Shown: in pieces, positions 2,995 to 26,619 of the stretch
How positions within the stretch are numbered: position 1 is the first letter of the stretch
Layout: every line of letters begins with the position of its first letter
Origin: Nocardiopsis alkaliphila YIM 80379
GTDB lineage: Bacteria; Actinomycetota; Actinomycetes; Streptosporangiales; Streptosporangiaceae
Assembly: GCF_000341005.1 (NCBI RefSeq)
Contig: NZ_ANBD01000068.1
Span: 1-32,633 of the forward strand
DNA length: 32,633 nucleotides
Direction of reading: 5' to 3'
Program-made: the position numbers and the translations under genes
Notes under the pieces: generated by a model
Told to the model about the DNA's origin: nothing
Seen by the model: only the letters and a program-made list of their open reading frames with translations
The model's database searches: none

Positions 2995-3023
2995 CCGAGG
3001 AGACGCGGAAGCCGCGCCCTCGG
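2995..3023 (-). terminator. Hairpin after uvrB
   Basis: CCGAGG (2995-3000) pairs with CCTCGG (3018-3023), and CGCGG (3004-3008) pairs with CCGCG (3012-3016), around a 3-nt loop and an asymmetric internal bulge. It begins 10 nt after the uvrB stop codon on the minus strand, which suits a U-tract-less terminator. Confidence 0.55.
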
Positions 3024-3033
3024 CGGCGATCGG

Positions 3034-5124
<2,091 letters not shown>

Positions 5125-14339: not shown

Positions 14340-14437
14340 TCATGCCACACATCGCGGACTTGCAGGACGCATCTGCACCATCGGCACGCTGCGGCACGCA
14401 AGACGTGCACCGCCGCTTGAACGGAGTGACCACGATC

Positions 14438-15685
14438 ATGGCAAGCAAGAAGGTCCTAGGACTCACTGCCGCGACCGCGGCCCTTGTGCTGGGGCTCACC
14501 GCGTGTGGCAACGGCGACGGTGGCGACGGCGGAGGCGACTCAGCGGGCGAAGAGTTCACCTACGGCATCATCTATCCGCAGACCGGCGCCCTCGCCTTCC
14601 TCGGCCCGCCCCAGATCGCGGCGGCCGAATACGCGATCTCCGAGATCAACGACGCCGGCGGCATCTTGGGCACCGAAGTCCCCGCCATCGTCGAAGGTGA
14701 CGAGGCCGGCGACGGCGCCCAGGCCAACGAGGCCGCCAACAGCCTCGTCAACAGCGACGTCAACGCCGTCATCGGCGCCGCGGCCTCGGGCATGACCCAG
14801 GCGATCTACGACACCATCACCGGTTCCGAGATCGTCCAGTGCTCCGGTTCCAACACCGCACCCGACCTCACCGACATCGACGACGGCGGATACTTCTTCC
14901 GCACCGCGCCCAGCGACCTGATGTCCGGCCCGGTCATGGCCCGCCAGATCGTCGAGAAGAACCAGCTCAGCGTCGCCATCGTCGCCCGCGCCGACGACTA
15001 CGGCAACGGCTACATGCAGGCCGTCCAAGACGAGCTGGAGGCCTTGGGCGCCGAAGTCGTCCTCACCGAGACCTACGACCCCGACGCCACCAACTTCGAC
15101 AGCGTCGTCAACGCCGTCTCCGGGGAGGAGCCCGAGGCCGTCGCCCTCATCTCCTTCGAAGAGGGCGCCCAGGTCATCGCCGAGCTCCTCGAGAGCGGCG
15201 TCGAAGGCGACCAGCTCTACATCACCGACGGCCTCAACAGCCCCGAACTGGGCAGCACCGTCAACGAGGACGACCCGAGCATCGTCGACGGCATCACCGG
15301 GGTCGCCCCCGGCGCGGACAACCCCGAGTTCAACGAAGGACTCCGCGAGTTCGAGCCGGACCTGGACGCCTTCCAGTTCTCCCCGCAGGTCTTCGACTGC
15401 GTGACCGCGATCGCCCTGGCCGCCGAATCCGCCGAGTCGGTCGACCCGAGCGTCTACGTCGAGCACCTGCCCGAGATCAGCCGCCCCGAGGGCACCGAGT
15501 GCTCCTCCTTCGAAGAGTGCCGTGACCTGCTCGCCGACGGTGAGGACATCGACTTCCAGGGCACCAGCGGCAACATCGACTTCGACGACAACGGCGACCC
15601 CACCGCCGCCACCTTCGAGATCTTCGGTTTCGACGGTGAGACCCACGGGGTCACCGCCTACGAGGAGTACTCCGCCGACGAGTAA
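14438..15685 (+). CDS. livK: Branched-chain amino acid-type ABC substrate-binding lipoprotein, copy 1
   Basis: Extracytoplasmic receptor of a HAAT-family ABC importer, 415 aa, predicted to deliver branched-chain amino acids or related amides to the LivHMGF complex encoded convergently downstream. The signal peptide MASKKVLGLTAATAALVLGLTAC ends in an LTAC lipobox (Cys about 23). A Gly/Asp-rich linker follows, then a type I periplasmic-binding fold beginning FTYGIIYPQTGALAFLGPPQ. INDAGGILG and the ligand-loop regions IGAAASGMTQ and VQCSGSNTAPDLTDIDDGG are typical of Peripla_BP_6. ATG at 14438 has GGAG 12 nt upstream. The exact ligand cannot be read from sequence. A closely similar paralogue follows at 16104, and each copy has its own terminator. 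Confidence 0.9.
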   Translation: MASKKVLGLTAATAALVLGLTACGNGDGGDGGGDSAGEEFTYGIIYPQTGALAFLGPPQIAAAEYAISEINDAGGILGTEVPAIVEGDEAGDGAQANEAANSLVNSDVNAVIGAAASGMTQAIYDTITGSEIVQCSGSNTAPDLTDIDDGGYFFRTAPSDLMSGPVMARQIVEKNQLSVAIVARADDYGNGYMQAVQDELEALGAEVVLTETYDPDATNFDSVVNAVSGEEPEAVALISFEEGAQVIAELLESGVEGDQLYITDGLNSPELGSTVNEDDPSIVDGITGVAPGADNPEFNEGLREFEPDLDAFQFSPQVFDCVTAIALAAESAESVDPSVYVEHLPEISRPEGTECSSFEECRDLLADGEDIDFQGTSGNIDFDDNGDPTAATFEIFGFDGETHGVTAYEEYSADE

Positions 15686-16103
15686 CACCATAGGACGACA
15701 CATCCTCAGGTAGCGGTGTCTTCACACACGCATCCACCGGGGGTGCGGGGCCTGGCCCCGCACCCCCGAACCCATGTCCCCGCCACACCCCATGCCACGT
15801 CCGTACCTCGTCCACGACGGACACCGACGGCGTTGTCCCATCCCCCCGTGCACGAGACGCCGCCCCGGACCCCACCGGCACGGCCGCCTCCCGCACGCCG
15901 TGCCTCCGTACATCCCAAGGAAGTGGCGCTCAAGAAAAGTACGTCCCCCGAGACCGACACCATCCCGCCCCGGCCCCTGATTGGCCCACCCGTGGAACCG
16001 GCGCACACCCACATACGCTCCGGACCACCACATCCCCCGACCGTCCAGCACCCACGGCCTCTGTCCCCTCTGGGCCGAACACCGCCTTCGAACGGAACGA
16101 CCC
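15686..16103 (+). other. Gene-free gap between the two receptor genes
   Basis: This stretch of 418 nt holds the terminator of copy 1 (15739-15767) and about 335 nt of leader or promoter sequence for copy 2. I see no gene, no copy of the TGATTAAG repeat and no clear -35/-10 pair. Confidence 0.4.
15739..15767 (+). terminator. Terminator of receptor gene copy 1
   Basis: A perfect 12-bp stem, GGGGGTGCGGGG (15739-15750) with CCCCGCACCCCC (15756-15767), closes a 5-nt loop. It lies 54 nt past the stop. No U-tract follows. Confidence 0.8.
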
Positions 16104-17348
16104 ATGTCCACCCGACCCACCCTGACCCTTCCCGCCGCCGCACTGGCGGCCGCCCTCACCCTCACCTCGTGCGCCGACGCCACCGGTGACGACGACGGCG
16201 CCTTCACCTACGGGCTTCTCTACCCACAGACCGGTTCCCTCGCCTTTCTCGGTCCCTCCCAGATCGCGGCCGTCGAATACGCGATCTCCGAGATCAACGA
16301 CGCCGGCGGCATCCTGGGCACCGAAGTCCCCCCGCCCATCGAAGCCGACGAGGCCGGTGACAACGCCCAGGCCAACGAAGCCGCCAACACCCTCGTCAAC
16401 AACAACGTCAACGCCGTCATCGGCGCCGCGGCCTCGGCCATGACCCAGGCCACCTACGACACCATCACCGGTTCCGAGATCGTCCAGTGCTCCGGAACCA
16501 ACACCTCACCCGACCTCACCGACATCGACGACGGCGGATACTACTTCCGCACCGCGCCCAGCGACCTGCTCGCCGGTCCCGTCCTCGCCCGCCAGATCGT
16601 CGACGACGGCAACGAAAGCGTCGCCCTCATCGCCCGCGCCGACGACTACGGCACCGGCTACCTCCAGGCCGTCGAGAACGAACTCAACGCCCTGGGCGCC
16701 GAAGTCGCGCTCAGCGAGACCTACGACCCCGACAGCACCAACTTCGGCGCCGTCATCACCGGAGCCATCGAGATCGAGGCCGACGCCATAGCCCTCATCT
16801 CCTTTCAAGAAGGCACCCAGCTCATGGCCGCCCTCCTCGAAAGCAACATCCCGGGCGAGGACTTCTACCTCACCGACGGCCTCAACGACCCTGGTCTGGC
16901 CGAAACCGTGAGCGCCGACCGCCCCGGACTCATCGACGGCACCACCGGCGTCGCGCCCAGTGCCGACAACTCGAACTTCAACGAAGGTCTGCGCGAGTTC
17001 GCCCCGGACTTGGAGGTCTTCCAGTTCGCCCCCCAGGTCTTCGACTGCGTCACCGTCATCGCCCTGGCCGCCGAATCCGCCTCCTCGTCCCTTCCCGCCG
17101 ACTACGTCTCGCACCTACCCGAGGTCAGTCGTCCCGACGGCACAGAATGCTTCTCCTTCGCCGAATGCCGCGACCTGCTCGCCGAGGGACAGAGCATCGA
17201 CTACCAGGGCGCCAGCGGCGACATCGACTTCGACGACAACGGCGACCCCACCTCCGCCACCTTCGAGATCTTCCACTTCGGCCCCAACGGCTACGAAATC
17301 CTCGACTACGTCGACTACTCCGCCGAGCAGAACACCGACCAAGGCTGA
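16104..17348 (+). CDS. livK: Branched-chain amino acid-type ABC substrate-binding lipoprotein, copy 2
   Basis: A paralogue of the preceding receptor, 414 aa. The signal peptide ends in the lipobox LTSC (Cys about 20), followed by FTYGLLYPQTGSLAFLGPSQ. Large parts agree with copy 1 almost base for base, including the stretches around 16282-16330 and 16455-16570, whereas the C-terminal half is more divergent (for example SSSLPADYVSHLPEVS against ESVDPSVYVEHLPEIS). The ligand-contact loop VQCSGTNTSPDLTDIDDGG has two substitutions compared with copy 1, so specificity may be similar but not identical. ATG at 16104 was chosen because it gives the signal peptide; AACGGAACGA upstream is only a weak ribosome binding site. 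It converges with the liv permease operon, with a shared terminator between. Confidence 0.9.
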   Translation: MSTRPTLTLPAAALAAALTLTSCADATGDDDGAFTYGLLYPQTGSLAFLGPSQIAAVEYAISEINDAGGILGTEVPPPIEADEAGDNAQANEAANTLVNNNVNAVIGAAASAMTQATYDTITGSEIVQCSGTNTSPDLTDIDDGGYYFRTAPSDLLAGPVLARQIVDDGNESVALIARADDYGTGYLQAVENELNALGAEVALSETYDPDSTNFGAVITGAIEIEADAIALISFQEGTQLMAALLESNIPGEDFYLTDGLNDPGLAETVSADRPGLIDGTTGVAPSADNSNFNEGLREFAPDLEVFQFAPQVFDCVTVIALAAESASSSLPADYVSHLPEVSRPDGTECFSFAECRDLLAEGQSIDYQGASGDIDFDDNGDPTSATFEIFHFGPNGYEILDYVDYSAEQNTDQG

Positions 17349-22099: not shown

Positions 22100-22690
22100 T
22101 CAGCCCGACTGTCCGCCCAGTGTCTCGACGACGGTCTCGGCGACCTTGCGCATGGTCAGCCGACGATCCATGGAGTTCTTCTGGATCCATCGGAACGCCT
22201 CGGGTTCACTCATCCCGTGCCGGCTCTGCAACAGCCCTTTGGCCTGCTCCACCAGTTTGCGCGTCTCCAAGCGGTCCTGGAGTCCGCTGACCTCCGCCTC
22301 CAGCGCCGACAGTTCGGCGTAGCGGGAGGTCGCCATCTCGATCGCCGGCACCAGGTCCGCCTTACTGAAGGGCTTGACCAGATAGGCCATGGCACCGGCC
22401 TCTCGGGCCCGCTCCACCAGCTCACGCTGAGAAAAAGCGGTCAGGATCACGACCGGGGCGATGCGCTCCGCCGCGATCCGCTCGGCGGCCGTCAGGCCAT
22501 CGAGCACCGGCATCTTGATGTCGGTGATCACCAGGTCGGGCCGGAGTTCCCGGGCAAGCCTGATGGCGGCCTCGCCATCACCGGCCTCCCCCACGACGGC
22601 GTAACCGTCCTCTTCGAGCATCTCCTTGAGATCCAGGCGGATCAGGGCCTCGTCTTCCGCGATCACCACACGGCTCTGCGTCCTCGTCAC
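22100..22690 (-). CDS. pdtaR: ANTAR-domain response regulator (PdtaR type)
   Basis: Two-component response regulator that acts on RNA rather than DNA, 196 aa. The receiver domain (about 7-120) has the acidic pocket EDE at 12-14, the phospho-acceptor Asp about 57 in LVITDIKMP, Thr in LTAFSQR and Lys in YLVKPF. The C-terminal ANTAR domain (about 136-190: KLVEQAKGLLQSRHGMSEPE, then a second helix pair) binds tandem-hairpin RNA to prevent termination. The closeness to Mycobacterium tuberculosis Rv1626/PdtaR is striking from memory. The start GTG at 22690 has no ribosome binding site; TAACCT ends 7 nt upstream, so the mRNA may be leaderless. No cognate histidine kinase lies in the window. Confidence 0.93.
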   Translation of the reverse strand: MTRTQSRVVIAEDEALIRLDLKEMLEEDGYAVVGEAGDGEAAIRLARELRPDLVITDIKMPVLDGLTAAERIAAERIAPVVILTAFSQRELVERAREAGAMAYLVKPFSKADLVPAIEMATSRYAELSALEAEVSGLQDRLETRKLVEQAKGLLQSRHGMSEPEAFRWIQKNSMDRRLTMRKVAETVVETLGGQSG

Positions 22691-22697
22691 GTACACG

Positions 22698-22703
22698 AGG
22701 TTA
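22698..22703 (-). promoter_or_regulatory. Candidate -10 element for leaderless pdtaR
   Basis: TAACCT on the minus strand stands 7 nt before GTG 22690, the same geometry as at polA. A second possible -10, CATACT, lies about 12 nt further upstream. No -35 is evident. Confidence 0.35.
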
Positions 22704-22818
22704 CAGAAATCAGCTAGTATGCTGTGCGTTGGCCCCGGCAATGCCGGTCAATCGTGACCCCACCGTTGATCGAGCAGCTCCACCCATGGAGGGACAGTCG
22801 GGCAAAACGGACAAATCA

Positions 22819-22901
22819 GCCGGAATGATGGAATGGCAGACATAGGGGACTCAAAATCCCCCGTCCTCACGGACGTGTGGGTTCGAATCCCACTTCCGGC
22901 A
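22819..22901 (+). tRNA. tRNA-Leu (anticodon CAA)
   Basis: A cloverleaf can be folded by hand. The acceptor stem is GCCGGAA (22819-22825) with TTCCGGC (22894-22900), followed by discriminator A. The anticodon stem GGGGA/TCCCC (22845-22849 and 22857-22861) frames the loop CTCAAAA with anticodon CAA at 22852-22854, decoding UUG. The long variable arm (CGTCC/GGACG) is that of a class II tRNA, and the T arm is GTGGG-TTCGAAT-CCCAC. The 3' CCA is not encoded (the genomic bases are CCG). Confidence 0.97.
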
Positions 22902-22903
22902 CC

Positions 22904-22945
22904 GAACAACGAGAAGGGCCGCCGCGGCGGCCCTTCTCGTTGTTC
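22904..22945. repeat. Perfect 42-bp palindrome next to tRNA-Leu
   Basis: Bases 22904-22923 are the exact reverse complement of 22926-22945, around a central GC, so all 42 bases are palindromic. As RNA it gives a stem of about 19 bp with a 4-nt loop. It starts 2 nt after the tRNA discriminator base and would be a strong terminator. However, neither side has a T-run, and the perfect symmetry also fits a protein-binding or cleavage site. Confidence 0.9.
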
Positions 22946-22995
22946 AAAGCTCGCACGACCGAGGGATGTCCGAGGCGTGAGCGAACATACACCCT

Positions 22996-23793
22996 ATGTA
23001 TTCACGCGAGATCGTTGACGAAGCCCTGAAACCGCGTGCCCTCGGTTGGACCCGACAACGCATCGCCTCGACGTGCGGAGTATCCCAAAGAGCAGTCAGC
23101 CGTTGGCTCAACGAGACCCGACGTAACTCCAGGGCCGAGGCCGATCGGACCACCTACTGCCCCCGACGTTCGGATGGGGCCCTCCGTGAAGAGGCGTACG
23201 CCTATGTCCTGGGTACCTACTTGAGCGACGGCCACATCGTCGAGATCCGGCACAAGCCGGGCCTGCACACACTGTCCGTCTTCTACGACAAGAAATACCC
23301 GCAGCTGATCGCCTACTGCCAGGTCGCGATGGAGTCCGTCCTTCCGGTCAAGGCATGCAGGGTCAAGCGACCCGGTTGTATCGAGATCAAGAGCTACTCC
23401 AAGCACTGGACCTGTGTGTTCCCCCAACACGGCTCCGGGAAGAAGCATGAGCGGCCCATCCTCCTGCAACCTTGGCGGCAACGCATCGTGAAGGAGCATT
23501 CCGAAGCGCTGATACGAGGGCTCATGCACTCCGACGGCTGCCGAACCATCAACCGAACAGCCAAGAGGCGGCCCGATGGCGCGGTGGAGTACCACGAGTA
23601 CCCGCGCTACCACTTCACCAACGTCTCGACCGACATCATCGGCGTCTTCACGCATGCCTTGGACCGGTTGGGAATCGCCTGGAGGGTCCACGTCGACAAG
23701 AGGGAGCCCCGCGGCAGGGACGCCCACATCGTGTCCATCTCCCGCAAGGACGCGGTCGCGGTGATGGAACGCGTCGTGGGGCCCAAGTACTGA
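22996..23793 (+). CDS. Free-standing HTH plus LAGLIDADG-type endonuclease-like protein
   Basis: Protein of 265 aa. Residues 1-45 form a helix-turn-helix of the Hin/homeodomain-like kind (GWTRQRIASTCGVSQRAVSR). The remainder resembles a double-motif LAGLIDADG homing endonuclease: motif 1 YVLGTYLSDG (70-79) and motif 2 LIRGLMHSDG (172-181), about 102 residues apart. Each ends in the Asp (78, 180) that would bind the catalytic metal. YHFTNVSTDIIGVFTHALDRLGIAWRV is cut here into a typical last-helix region after motif 2. No intron or intein surrounds it; it lies 50 nt past the palindrome behind tRNA-Leu. ATG at 22996 has no ribosome binding site. It could cut or bind DNA at the tRNA locus, or be a regulator built from this fold. 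Confidence 0.75.
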   Translation: MYSREIVDEALKPRALGWTRQRIASTCGVSQRAVSRWLNETRRNSRAEADRTTYCPRRSDGALREEAYAYVLGTYLSDGHIVEIRHKPGLHTLSVFYDKKYPQLIAYCQVAMESVLPVKACRVKRPGCIEIKSYSKHWTCVFPQHGSGKKHERPILLQPWRQRIVKEHSEALIRGLMHSDGCRTINRTAKRRPDGAVEYHEYPRYHFTNVSTDIIGVFTHALDRLGIAWRVHVDKREPRGRDAHIVSISRKDAVAVMERVVGPKY

Positions 23794-23811: not shown

Positions 23812-24714
23812 TCACAGGGTCCGCAGGTGGTCGCGCAGGGTACGGGCGACGCGCCCCAAGAGGGCTTCGGTCTCGGGCTGGTGACGGGCCGGAACGCGCG
23901 AGGCACTGAGAGCGGCGATGGCGTAGGCCTCGCCGCTCTTGTGTTCGACGACACCGATCTCGTGGCGGTGGTTGAGGACCGTGCCGGTCTTGGAGGCCCA
24001 GGTACTGGCGTCGGTGGTGAAGTCGGGGGCCAGGCGGTGACGGATGAGGTTGTCGGCCATGAGCTCGCGGACGCCTTGGGCGACCTCGGGGTGGATGTGG
24101 GTGGGTTTCCAAAGGGCCTGGAGGAGGTCGACGTGGGCCCGCGCGGAGCCGGAGTTGGCGAGGGTGACGTCGAGTTGGGGGATGTCGTGGCCTCGACCGT
24201 CGGTGCCCGCCTGGATGGCGAGGGTGTGGGCCAGGTGGGTTTCGTCGGGGTCGAGGCGTTCGGCGGGGGTGCGGTTGAGGTCGTGGATGCGGTGCCTGAC
24301 GGTGATGCCGTGGATGTGGTGGTCCTTGAGGACGCGGGCGACGTGGGCGGGTGGGGTGAGGTCGAAGAGGGTGTCGGCCGCGGTGTTGTCGCTGAGGCAG
24401 GTGCTGAGGTGGAGGAGGTCTTCGATGGCGATGGTGATGGGGTGCCGGAATTTACTGATGCCGAAGGGGCCGGTGCCGGGTGGGCCGGTGTCGGTCTTGG
24501 TGGGGGTGACGCGCATGGGGGTGGCGCCGTCGAGTTCGCCTTGGTGAATGCGGTGGAGGGTGGCCAGGGCGAGGGGGACTTTGACCAGGGACGCGGTGGC
24601 GTATTCGGTGTCGGGGTCGATGCCGATCTCGTGGCCGGTGTGGAGGTCGCGAACGAGGAAGGAGGCGTGCAGGCCCGCCTCGTGGAGTTGGTCGCGAAGG
24701 TGGTGGGTGATCAT
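23812..24714 (-). CDS. Serine beta-lactamase-like protein without signal peptide
   Basis: Class A beta-lactamase-like fold (COG2367), 300 aa. The motifs are S42-L-V-K45 (ATASLVKVPLA), S108-D-N110 (CLSDNTAAD) and K242-T-G244 (SKTGTV). I cannot find the omega-loop E-x-x-L-N that holds the deacylating Glu166; the corresponding region reads HDLNRTPAERLDPDETH. There is no signal peptide and the first residues MITHHLRDQL are polar, so it would stay in the cytoplasm unless exported another way. It may be an esterase, amidase or penicillin-binding sensor rather than a resistance enzyme. ATG at 24714 overlaps the LysR stop (ATGA), so the two are translationally coupled. Coding-strand bases are C-rich, unlike the G-rich divergent gene. 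Confidence 0.8.
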   Translation of the reverse strand: MITHHLRDQLHEAGLHASFLVRDLHTGHEIGIDPDTEYATASLVKVPLALATLHRIHQGELDGATPMRVTPTKTDTGPPGTGPFGISKFRHPITIAIEDLLHLSTCLSDNTAADTLFDLTPPAHVARVLKDHHIHGITVRHRIHDLNRTPAERLDPDETHLAHTLAIQAGTDGRGHDIPQLDVTLANSGSARAHVDLLQALWKPTHIHPEVAQGVRELMADNLIRHRLAPDFTTDASTWASKTGTVLNHRHEIGVVEHKSGEAYAIAALSASRVPARHQPETEALLGRVARTLRDHLRTL

Positions 24715-25574
24715 GTGCGGGCTCCGAGGCAGCGGGCGATGTGGGTGTGCAGGTGAGTGTGGAGGGTGTGGGCGTGTTCTCCGATGGCGGTGTGGTCGCG
24801 GGTGGGTTGGATTTCACCGATGGGACGCCAATGGAGGTCGAGTGATTCGGCTTGGTCGGGGGTGCAGAGGAGGAGGTCGTCGTTGGTGAGGACTTCGGCG
24901 GTGGCGGTGGTGAGGCTACCGGCGAGGGTGATCTGGGTGGGGTGGAGTCCGAGCGCGTGGCCGGTGCGGGTGAGTGGGTCACGGATGTGGGGGGTGTCGT
25001 CTTCGGGTTGGATCCACACGCGTCGACGTGGGGTGGTGTCGGTGCGGCCGTTACGGAGTGTTTCGAGGTAGGTGATGGGGGCGCGGGGCGGTTCGTGGGT
25101 GGCCAGGCCCAGGGGTGCGGTCCAGTGGGCCTGGTCGGGTGGTGCGCAGACGAGGGCGGCGCGGACCTGGTGTGTATGGAGGAGGTGGGTGCGTTGGGCG
25201 GGTGGTGCGGGGTGGGGGTCGAGGTTGAGGTCGTGGTGGCGGGCGTGGGCGGTGAGGTGGGCGAGGTCGTGGGTGGTGCAGGTGGTGGGGACGGCGATGC
25301 GTAGCGGGGCCAGGCGTGCGGTGGCGGCGTCGTGTTCGAGGGTGTGGGCGAGTTCGATGAGGCGGCGGGCGGCGGGGAGGACGGCGTGTCCGAATTGGGT
25401 GAGGGTGGGGTGGCGTCCGGTGCGGTCGAAGAGGGGCGCGCCGAGGTGTTTTTCGAGGGCGGCGATGCGCCGGCTGGCGACGGGTTGGGGAATGTGGGCG
25501 GCTGCGGCGCCGTGGGTGAAGCTGCCGCGGTCGCTGACGTGAACGAAGGCGGTGCAGGCTCCTACGAGGTCCAT
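24711..25574 (-). CDS. LysR-family transcriptional regulator, His-rich
   Basis: DNA-binding regulator of 287 aa. The N-terminal winged HTH is clear (AFVHVSDRGSFTHGAAAAHI, then VASRRIAALEKHLGAPLFDR), followed by a LysR effector-binding domain. It is upstream of and overlaps the beta-lactamase-like gene by 4 nt, and is divergent from a second, class A beta-lactamase gene. This resembles an AmpR-type arrangement but with lactamase genes on both sides. Composition is odd: by hand count about 30 His and a single Lys, with an HxH cluster at the C-terminus (HAHTLHTHLHTHIARC). No ribosome binding site precedes ATG 25574; TAGCCT lies 6 nt upstream and suggests a leaderless start. Confidence 0.88.
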   Translation of the reverse strand: MDLVGACTAFVHVSDRGSFTHGAAAAHIPQPVASRRIAALEKHLGAPLFDRTGRHPTLTQFGHAVLPAARRLIELAHTLEHDAATARLAPLRIAVPTTCTTHDLAHLTAHARHHDLNLDPHPAPPAQRTHLLHTHQVRAALVCAPPDQAHWTAPLGLATHEPPRAPITYLETLRNGRTDTTPRRRVWIQPEDDTPHIRDPLTRTGHALGLHPTQITLAGSLTTATAEVLTNDDLLLCTPDQAESLDLHWRPIGEIQPTRDHTAIGEHAHTLHTHLHTHIARCLGART

Positions 25575-25701
25575 GGGGTGAGGCTATGTCGAAAAGGCAT
25601 GGGAGTGGCCGTTTTCGTCTTGGACGGCATGGGTGGTGGGGGGTGAGACTGCGGGTGCGGGCCGGTCGTGGTTCGTTCTCTCGAAGTCATGGAGGTTTTC
25701 G
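25575..25701. promoter_or_regulatory. Divergent promoter region of lysR and the class A beta-lactamase
   Basis: A gap of 127 bp. It contains the candidate LysR -10 (TAGCCT, minus strand, next to the ATG) and an imperfect dyad, ATG-N9-CAT (25586-25600), that contains a T-N11-A pattern as in LysR boxes. Such patterns are frequent by chance, so the operator is tentative. Confidence 0.35.
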
Positions 25702-26619
25702 GTGAGGTTCGTGGTGCCTGGGTTCGTGGCGGCGGCGATGTTGGTGCCGTTGGTGGGGTGTGCTTCCTCGGAGGGAACGCCTCCCGAAGGCGCGGCCGTT
25801 GCGTCTTCGTCGGTGGAGGCGACGGAGTCCGTGGTGGACCTGTCGGTGGAGTTCGAGGCGTTGGAGGAGGAGTTCGACGCACGGCTCGGGGTGTACGCGG
25901 TGGATACGGGTTCGGGTGAGGTGGTCGCCTTCCGGGAAGATGAGCGATTCGCGCTCGCGTCGACGTTCAAGGCCTTGTTGGCGGGGGTGGTGTTGTCGGA
26001 GAACTCGTTGGAGGAGATGGAGCGGGTGGTGACCTTCGATGAGGAGGTGTTGGTGCCGCATTCCCCGGTGACGGAGCAGCATCTGGGGGTGGGGATGTCG
26101 TTGTTGGAGTTGTGTGACGCGACGGTGCGCTTCAGCGACAACGCGGCGGCGAACCTTTTGTTGGACGAGGTGGGCGGCCCTGAAGGGTTCACCGAGGCGT
26201 TGGGTGGGTTGACCGGGGATGAGGTGACGAACCTGGTGCGGTACGAGGTGGAGATGGCCGAGGGGGTGCCGGGGGACGAGCGGGACACGAGCACCGCCGA
26301 GGCGTTGGTGGGTTCCTTGGAGGAATTCACGCTCGGTGACGTGTTGCCCGAGGATCGTCGTGAGGTGTTGGTGGATTTGTTGGAGCGCAACACCACGGGG
26401 GACGCCCTGATTCGAGCGGGGGTCCCGGAGGGATGGGTCGTGGGTGACAAGACCGGCGCCGGTGGTTTCGGGACGCGCAACGACATCGGGGTGTTGTGGC
26501 CGCCGGAGGGGGGTCCGATCGTGTTGGCGGTGTTGTCGAGCCGGGATGAGTCCGGCGCGGAACACGATGACGCGTTGATCGCTCAGGCCACGGAGGTGGT
26601 GGTGGAGGCCCTGGACTGA
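25702..26619 (+). CDS. Class A beta-lactamase, lipoprotein, with atypical residue 170
   Basis: Secreted serine beta-lactamase, 305 aa. The signal peptide VRFVVPGFVAAAMLVPLVGC carries the lipobox LVGC (Cys 20), so the enzyme is probably membrane-anchored. Motifs are S87-T-F-K90 (Ser70 box), S145-D-N147 (SDN) and K250-T-G-A-G (KTG box). The omega loop reads YEVEMAEGVPGDERDTST, which aligns with WEPELNE...NDERDTT of TEM: Glu166 is E182, but Asn170 is Ala (186). Asn170 helps position the deacylating water, so the spectrum or rate may differ. GTG at 25702 has GGAGG 6 nt upstream; the frame opens earlier at 25633. It is divergent from lysR, which may control it. Confidence 0.92.
   Translation: MRFVVPGFVAAAMLVPLVGCASSEGTPPEGAAVASSSVEATESVVDLSVEFEALEEEFDARLGVYAVDTGSGEVVAFREDERFALASTFKALLAGVVLSENSLEEMERVVTFDEEVLVPHSPVTEQHLGVGMSLLELCDATVRFSDNAAANLLLDEVGGPEGFTEALGGLTGDEVTNLVRYEVEMAEGVPGDERDTSTAEALVGSLEEFTLGDVLPEDRREVLVDLLERNTTGDALIRAGVPEGWVVGDKTGAGGFGTRNDIGVLWPPEGGPIVLAVLSSRDESGAEHDDALIAQATEVVVEALD

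Follow-up and report, generated by a model that had tools for sequence, protein, structure and literature searches.

A free-standing HTH-LAGLIDADG family, probably of homing endonucleases, beside a hypervariable tRNA-Leu(CAA) gene in actinobacteria

The stretch analysed here (the window) covers positions 1 to 32,633, in nucleotides (nt), of contig NZ_ANBD01000068.1 of Nocardiopsis alkaliphila YIM 80379. In it, a tRNA-Leu(CAA) gene is followed by an open reading frame (ORF) for a protein that joins an N-terminal helix-turn-helix (HTH) to a LAGLIDADG nuclease part. We propose, as the probable explanation of the data set out below, that this protein belongs to a family of free-standing LAGLIDADG homing endonucleases that target the tRNA-Leu gene, replace the resident tRNA as a block with their own allele and then decay. 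Few genes are normally as constant as those for tRNAs; if the proposal is true, it adds a new route by which selfish DNA remodels the decoding apparatus, in a family that the searches met in more than 150 genomes and also in viral contigs that carry tRNA arrays. The gene and its parts lie as follows, the structural assignments drawing in part on an AlphaFold2 (AF2) model.

22996..23793, + strand: HTH-LAGLIDADG gene, 265 aa, ATG start, predicted free-standing homing endonuclease (ORF list, Pfam, family alignment, AF2 model)
23005..23136, + strand: N-terminal helix-turn-helix part, helices at residues 4-16, 20-27 and 31-47 (HTH_23 match, AF2 model)
23188..23229, + strand: LAGLIDADG helix 1, residues 65-78, with the catalytic Asp78 codon at 23227-23229 (alignment, AF2 model)
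23500..23535, + strand: LAGLIDADG helix 2, residues 169-180, with the catalytic Asp180 codon at 23533-23535 (alignment, AF2 model)
22975..23007, no strand: dyad GCGTGA...TCACGC over the nuclease start codon, a possible operator for self-regulation

Pfam recognises a single LAGLIDADG unit (LAGLIDADG_3, PF14528, residues 171-259; 31.2 bits against a cut-off of 22.5, E 2.7e-7) and an HTH_23 match at residues 14-42 that falls slightly below the cut-off (23.3 against 24.6 bits, E 5.3e-5). The family alignment and the AF2 model show two units, each closing in an invariant Asp (78 and 180), with the HTH at residues 4-47 and the LAGLIDADG part at about 62-265. The predicted structure has the two-fold alpha-beta-beta-alpha fold with two interface helices and matches LAGLIDADG structures by structure comparison, the WhiA chain aligning through its residues 15-199; a sequence search of the PDB with the window protein gave no relative (best E 0.35). 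The initial annotation, which had described a double-motif LAGLIDADG protein with an added HTH and both metal-binding Asp residues and had called for a structural check of the fold, is borne out on these points. It was also right in placing tRNA-Leu(CAA), a perfect 42-bp palindrome and, 50 nt on, the ORF, and in calling the gene free-standing: the tRNA gene is contiguous, without an intron, and the ORF lies outside any intron or intein.

Asp78 and Asp180 are identical in 103/103 homologs of intact length (the family alignment holds 103 of 112 loci, leaving aside eight of odd length and the duplicate L061), and the median dN/dS over 36 homolog pairs of 80-99.5% identity is 0.126. Judged by the invariant Asp residues and by this purifying selection, the nuclease family looks active. 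The HTH at its N-terminus would contribute specificity in DNA binding or let the protein repress its own gene. Dyads with a score of at least 7 stand at the nuclease start in 30 of 98 loci, against 11.5 in simple shuffles; the GCGTGA...TCACGC form is kept in many relatives of the genus and TGTCG...CGACA forms occur there in some other genera. The dyads in the 98 loci thus outnumber those in shuffles, with no one motif proven.

The initial annotation had also considered a regulator derived from a nuclease, and a domesticated, WhiA-like HTH-LAGLIDADG protein that regulates the tRNA-Leu(CAA) gene and itself, its nuclease activity lost, has to be weighed. WhiA is a conserved protein with an N-terminal LAGLIDADG part followed by a C-terminal HTH and with a degenerate site. 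Here the HTH sits at the opposite end, the catalytic Asp pair is kept, and the distribution is patchy: homologs were found, mostly as one match per genome, in 158/345 genomes of the order and in 38/40 of the genus (E 1e-5), while 187/345 gave no match at this threshold, at least one of them (G050) a contig-end miss. In relatives the gene is broken or partly deleted: G108 and G109 carry internal deletions, G114 retains a C-terminal stub and G090 has an empty site. Near-identical proteins, in addition, accompany different tRNA classes. A regulator is therefore unlikely, though it stays as a rival reading.

The position of the gene involves three further features of the window.

22819..22903, + strand: tRNA-Leu(CAA), long-arm (class II) allele (Rfam tRNA 55.1 bits; class from length and variable arm)
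22904..22945, no strand: perfect 42-bp palindrome, right flank TTCTCGTTGTTC, best read as the tRNA terminator hairpin
22100..22741, - strand: response-regulator gene with an ANTAR-type C-terminus (named by eye), divergent from the tRNA; the left flank that marks the fixed locus

We read the tRNA surroundings in 105 of the order's 158 carrier genomes, better matches first, and also in six Streptomyces genomes and in G100, G108 and G109. At 117 of 118 homolog loci, tRNA-Leu(CAA) lies upstream on the same strand; at the remaining one, L029, the sequence ends 98 nt before the gene. Without repeats the loci number 112 (L004 and L061, for example, are one genome), and in all but L078 (341) and L071 (1177) the tRNA and the gene lie 41-235 nt apart. 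A divergent response-regulator homolog stands directly upstream in 111/112 carrier loci and in 58/60 non-carrier loci, where one lacks it, one is too short upstream and two genomes are counted twice; by this conserved left flank the chromosomal locus is fixed. At least four genomes (G088, G092, G125, G317) have a tandem second copy, 37-48% identical to the window protein.

More distant relatives keep the association in other arrangements. A profile search of 396 genomes of the phylum gave 30 with a match, the window genome included, and at 29/29 other loci a tRNA lies about 6-109 nt away or, in L387, overlaps the reading frame, against a roughly estimated chance expectation of about 1% per locus for any tRNA so near. 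These tRNAs are 21 Leu(CAA), four Leu(TAG), one Leu(CAG), one Leu(TAA) and two Trp(CCA), on either side of the gene and on either strand. A FastTree phylogeny of 130 proteins, which omits the partial genes L388 and L389, implies at least nine changes of tRNA kind, side and strand, a count made approximate by several long branches. IMG/VR yielded no relatives with a single sequence and five with an alignment query; in 5/5 of these contigs the gene lies beside or overlaps tRNA-Leu, four have 4-10 tRNAs in the stretch read, and three of the proteins are near-identical. INPHARED and PLSDB held no close phage or plasmid relatives with the proteins tried. Because the family has repeatedly been placed beside tRNA-Leu, the tRNA gene itself is the likely target.

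Some individual arrangements deserve mention. In the IMG/VR contig L393, a predicted tRNA-Leu(CAA) (3106-3179) runs in frame inside the ORF (3001-3717), as the linker between the HTH and nuclease parts, and in L387 a tRNA-Leu(TAA) immediately precedes the nuclease part. The distant homologs in L373, L375, L378 and L385 lie 81-90 nt from an opposite-strand tRNA-Leu(TAG). Those in L381 and L386 adjoin tRNA-Trp(CCA), which is similar to Leu(CAA) in the DNA of its anticodon loop.

The neighbouring tRNA gene is unusually variable. Two forms occur at the one locus, a long-arm class II tRNA and a class I tRNA of 74-79 nt whose variable loop measures about 5 nt; the 112 carrier loci hold 73 of class I and 39 of class II. 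By a pattern with a fixed T arm, which copies with another T arm would escape, each of the 40 genus genomes has exactly one tRNA(CAA), and among these 31 are class I, nine are class II and 39 sequences are distinct. On the UvrB tree of 39 genus genomes the nine class II genomes imply nine changes, and nuclease types A (window-like) and B, assigned by hand from match scores, imply 13. Within the genus, UvrB distance is unrelated to that of the tRNA (Mantel r 0.005, p 0.43) and weakly related to that of the nuclease (r 0.24, p 0.0002). The Mantel tests used 31/40 genus genomes and the control with tRNA-Leu(TAA) 30/40. This control tRNA, which is likewise short-armed, is 96-100% identical to the window copy in 40/40 genomes, and in 21 genomes whose CAA gene is of class I, the CAA genes average an identity of 0.788 and the TAA genes one of 0.986.

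Variation peaks in the D arm and anticodon stem, and the T arm has only two forms among the 31 class I genes of the genus. Four of the five anticodon-stem pairs are paired in 71-73 of the 73 class I genes, with four pair types each, and the loop-side fifth in 46; since the stem changes are mostly compensated, a tRNA fold is maintained. We take the class I core to be Leu-like by general identity rules, with leucylation putative. The short arm is no novelty, and we dropped it as such: in the window genome tRNA-Leu(TAA) (L299, 75 nt) and tRNA-Leu(TAG) (L308, 76 nt) also lack a long variable arm, which Leu(GAG) and Leu(CAG) have, and a mycobacterial tRNA cluster with a short-armed tRNA-Leu(TAG) has been published (PMC6582537). 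The idea that class I tRNA(CAA) is exclusive to the gene was likewise rejected, this form being widespread in non-carriers. Might the protein act on the tRNA itself, as a maturase or a processing or repair factor, and have to sit with it for that reason? We hold this to be very unlikely, as the same kinds of tRNA occur without the gene, the tRNA has no intron, and an enzyme of this sort works in trans, with no need of chromosomal proximity.

Does the turnover of the tRNA follow the nuclease gene? The comparison covers the 17 genera with at least four sampled tRNAs; non-carriers were partly sampled, genus membership where unlisted was taken from contiguous handle numbers, and a genus counts as 'gene-free' if the window protein gave no match in it at E 1e-5. 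The six genera without matches (38 genomes) have 1-3 tRNA alleles each and a constant class, and both classes occur in 10/11 genera with matches against none of these six (Fisher p 0.0006). Across the 17 genera, allele diversity correlates with the fraction of carriers (Spearman 0.77, p 3e-4). The gene-rich genus can be set against four gene-free genera at equal UvrB distance. Below 4%, 94% of its 16 pairs have different alleles and 44% different classes, while for the 13 gene-free pairs both figures are 0%. The shares of gene-rich and gene-free pairs with different alleles are 92% (of 49) and 28% (of 40) at 4-8%, and 99% (of 429) and 42% (of 48) at 8-12%. Because the contrast holds at matched UvrB distance, depth is not the cause of the diversity. 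Class II tRNAs are found in 39/105 carriers and 15/77 sampled non-carriers of the order (p 0.013, uncorrected for relatedness), and on the nuclease tree they make up 4/44 in one clade, all four Streptomyces, against 36/67 in the other (p 8e-7). Taken together, this suggests that tRNA turnover depends on the gene.

The same figures bear on a reading in which the tRNA was diversified by attack at the RNA level, by anticodon nucleases or tRNA-Leu-cutting toxins, the nuclease gene hitch-hiking at an exchange hot spot. The mostly compensated stem changes do place the tRNA under RNA-level constraint, and a published defence system cuts a tRNA variable loop (PMC13096335). However, the short-armed tRNA-Leu(TAA) is undiversified, diversity tracks gene presence among genera and at matched UvrB distance, and distant family members adjoin tRNA-Leu in other arrangements, all of which makes this reading improbable.

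Occupied and empty sites show what has been exchanged. In genus g46 the sole carrier has a class II tRNA together with the gene, and four relatives are class I and gene-free; the flanks match at 82-85%, homology ends 67 nt before the tRNA and, with the end of the gene at +882, it returns between +910 and +922. In g30, L060 repeats such a block difference against three empty sites, and for L049 the left break is visible against five class I loci, one of these comparisons also recovering the right homology. Left homology ends 43-93 nt before the tRNA in 23/24 class-swapped comparisons, whereas it enters the tRNA in 11/12 same-class comparisons (p 2e-7, from a hand count of comparisons that are not independent). 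Since the left break falls close to where the flanking gene begins, it marks the intergenic region and not a specific end. In same-class pairs such as L046/L347, L095/L252 and L114/L357, the nuclease region is the sole difference. The comparison of relatives, which the initial annotation had proposed, upholds the gene's tie to the locus but reveals an unstable locus in which the exchanged part is the tRNA gene, something invisible in one sequence. Beyond the decayed forms named above, a stub is present in L206, and by eye gene pieces are present in L205 and L207, their starts or ends too short for the remnant criterion; the start-only 'stub' of L203 is a gene cut by the contig end and no remnant. 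In L388 (1743-2010) a partial nuclease gene is accompanied by two copies of tRNA-Leu(CAA), the first complete and the second running from nt 28 (first 27 missing; 57 nt, 88%), a possible footprint of cutting and replacement.

The mechanism that we favour builds on the predicted fold, the invariant catalytic residues, purifying selection, tRNA adjacency, gene-linked hypervariability, block differences and decay. An element consisting of a tRNA-Leu gene and the nuclease gene would arrive in a cell with a different tRNA-Leu(CAA) allele. We infer that the nuclease would then cut the resident tRNA gene, probably in its D-arm/anticodon-stem half, and the break would be repaired from the incoming copy by way of the conserved flanking genes. 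The nuclease gene and its own working tRNA allele, presumably resistant to the cut, would thereby displace the resident tRNA as a block. After fixation the nuclease gene would decay and go, the foreign tRNA would stay, and the locus would be open to re-invasion. The expected outcome is a tRNA whose sequence is renewed again and again under a preserved fold and anticodon, with repeated swaps between class I and class II. Patchiness, decay and the comparisons of occupied with empty sites fit mobility into gene-free alleles, although the direction of transfer is again one that we infer.

Several observations weigh against this proposal. DNA cleavage by the family is a prediction from sequence and model, and the window copy itself deviates at C58R, G77S (within the first LAGLIDADG helix) and Q161R, positions at which the other 102 of 103 homologs agree; this copy may be weakened and in early decay. 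Class II tRNAs occur in the 15/77 non-carriers mentioned above, some of them without any trace of the gene, and alleles can differ in gene-free genera, all such differences lying in g52 (31/55 pairs, with no class change). Tight co-inheritance of nuclease and tRNA allele had to be rejected, the link being weak: within the genus the Mantel r is 0.16 (p 0.007), and within class I it is 0.10 (p 0.065). In G120 and G112 the nucleases are 90% identical and the tRNA classes different, so that tRNA and gene can part. The class-swapped pair L058/L353 has no left break, and of the six g39 comparisons in which right homology is recovered, five have it returning only 130-230 nt past the gene. Remnants are few, being found at 5/59 non-carrier loci (L203 dropped), and their excess beside class II (3/14 against 2/45 for class I, p 0.08) is not significant, L257 of the three resting on 12 residues. 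Among 238 loci scanned for tRNA-fragment footprints, L388 alone is clear. Crossovers between the tRNA and the nuclease gene and clean, frequent losses could give rise to the loose co-inheritance, the gene-free class II alleles and the scarcity of remnants.

Free-standing homing is already known, and SegB of phages T4 and T6 is the closest known system. Like other free-standing homing endonucleases of T-even phages, SegB is encoded among or beside tRNA genes. It is reported to be needed if the tRNA gene region of T4 is to be inherited preferentially when phages co-infect, with co-conversion of the flanks; it is a GIY-YIG enzyme of phage genomes, favours no tRNA isotype and has its target listed as a tRNA intergenic region (PMC2988022; PMC13096335). 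The present family, in contrast, is HTH-LAGLIDADG, resides mainly in bacterial chromosomes, is tied to tRNA-Leu and swaps tRNA classes; no GIY-YIG domain appears among the 13 Pfam matches or the 25 of 26 PHROGs matches listed. It differs from I-DmoI, I-Tsp061I and the intein nucleases in lying outside an intron or intein, in its extra N-terminal HTH and in adjoining an intact host gene. In the open-access literature searched, subscription papers being outside its scope, we found no description of a chromosomal, tRNA-Leu-directed HTH-LAGLIDADG family with class swapping.

Two further parallels are instructive. The yeast HO protein, a nuclease extended by a DNA-binding part, exchanges the alternative alleles of a single locus, and engineered cleave-and-rescue drives link a nuclease to a resistant, working copy of its target. 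Unlike in these, the T-arm-specific pattern shows a single tRNA(CAA) in each genome and no second donor copy, and the donor would have to come from outside; the present system is, moreover, natural and bacterial. To our knowledge, cleave-and-rescue has so far been an engineering idea. We tentatively raise the possibility, which we rate at somewhat under an even chance, of a natural drive of this kind, in which the nuclease would destroy the resident tRNA-Leu(CAA), the linked recoded tRNA-Leu alone would restore survival, the class would be switched repeatedly and phage tRNA arrays would be possible vehicles. If the homing proposal is true, the family would offer a test system for homing in bacterial chromosomes, for the tolerance of tRNA-Leu to loss of the long arm and for natural cleave-and-rescue, with tRNA-directed meganucleases as a possible yield.

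The initial annotation had seen nuclease, tRNA and palindrome as one module, with the palindrome possibly as target, as scar or only as tRNA terminator. The link between gene and tRNA stands; a role for the palindrome in it does not. It is a 21+21 bp inverted repeat with zero spacer, and its perfect symmetry and its place next to both tRNA and gene could speak for a module centred on it as nuclease target or scar. Yet its sequence occurs in 1/40 genus genomes, the other 39, gene-free ones included, each having another best inverted repeat at this place, which in G088 and G125 is weak; G090 and G114, which lack an intact nuclease gene, still have a hairpin behind tRNA-Leu(CAA), and comparable hairpins follow some other tRNAs of the window genome (Val with a 20-bp arm, Tyr 18, Trp 17, Ala 15). 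Because the sequence is genome-specific and hairpins also occur without the gene and behind other tRNAs, target and scar were rejected, and such a module has almost no likelihood. The best reading of the palindrome is that of a terminator-type hairpin belonging to the tRNA: nearly all of the 40 genomes have a hairpin here, and T-rich tails often follow it in relatives, although a terminator scan that asks for a loop of 3-8 nt and five T within eight positions gave no match.

Two observations by eye concern the surroundings. Between the nuclease gene and the next conserved gene (23812-26619), two class A beta-lactamase-like ORFs flank a LysR-type ORF; in L124, L144 and L149 the same conserved gene follows within about 700 nt of the tRNA. 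Farther upstream, the near-alike neighbour ORFs at 14342-15685 and 15981-17348 resemble ABC-transporter substrate-binding proteins, and this apparently duplicated pair (14342-17348) adjoins a transporter set of the branched-chain amino-acid type.
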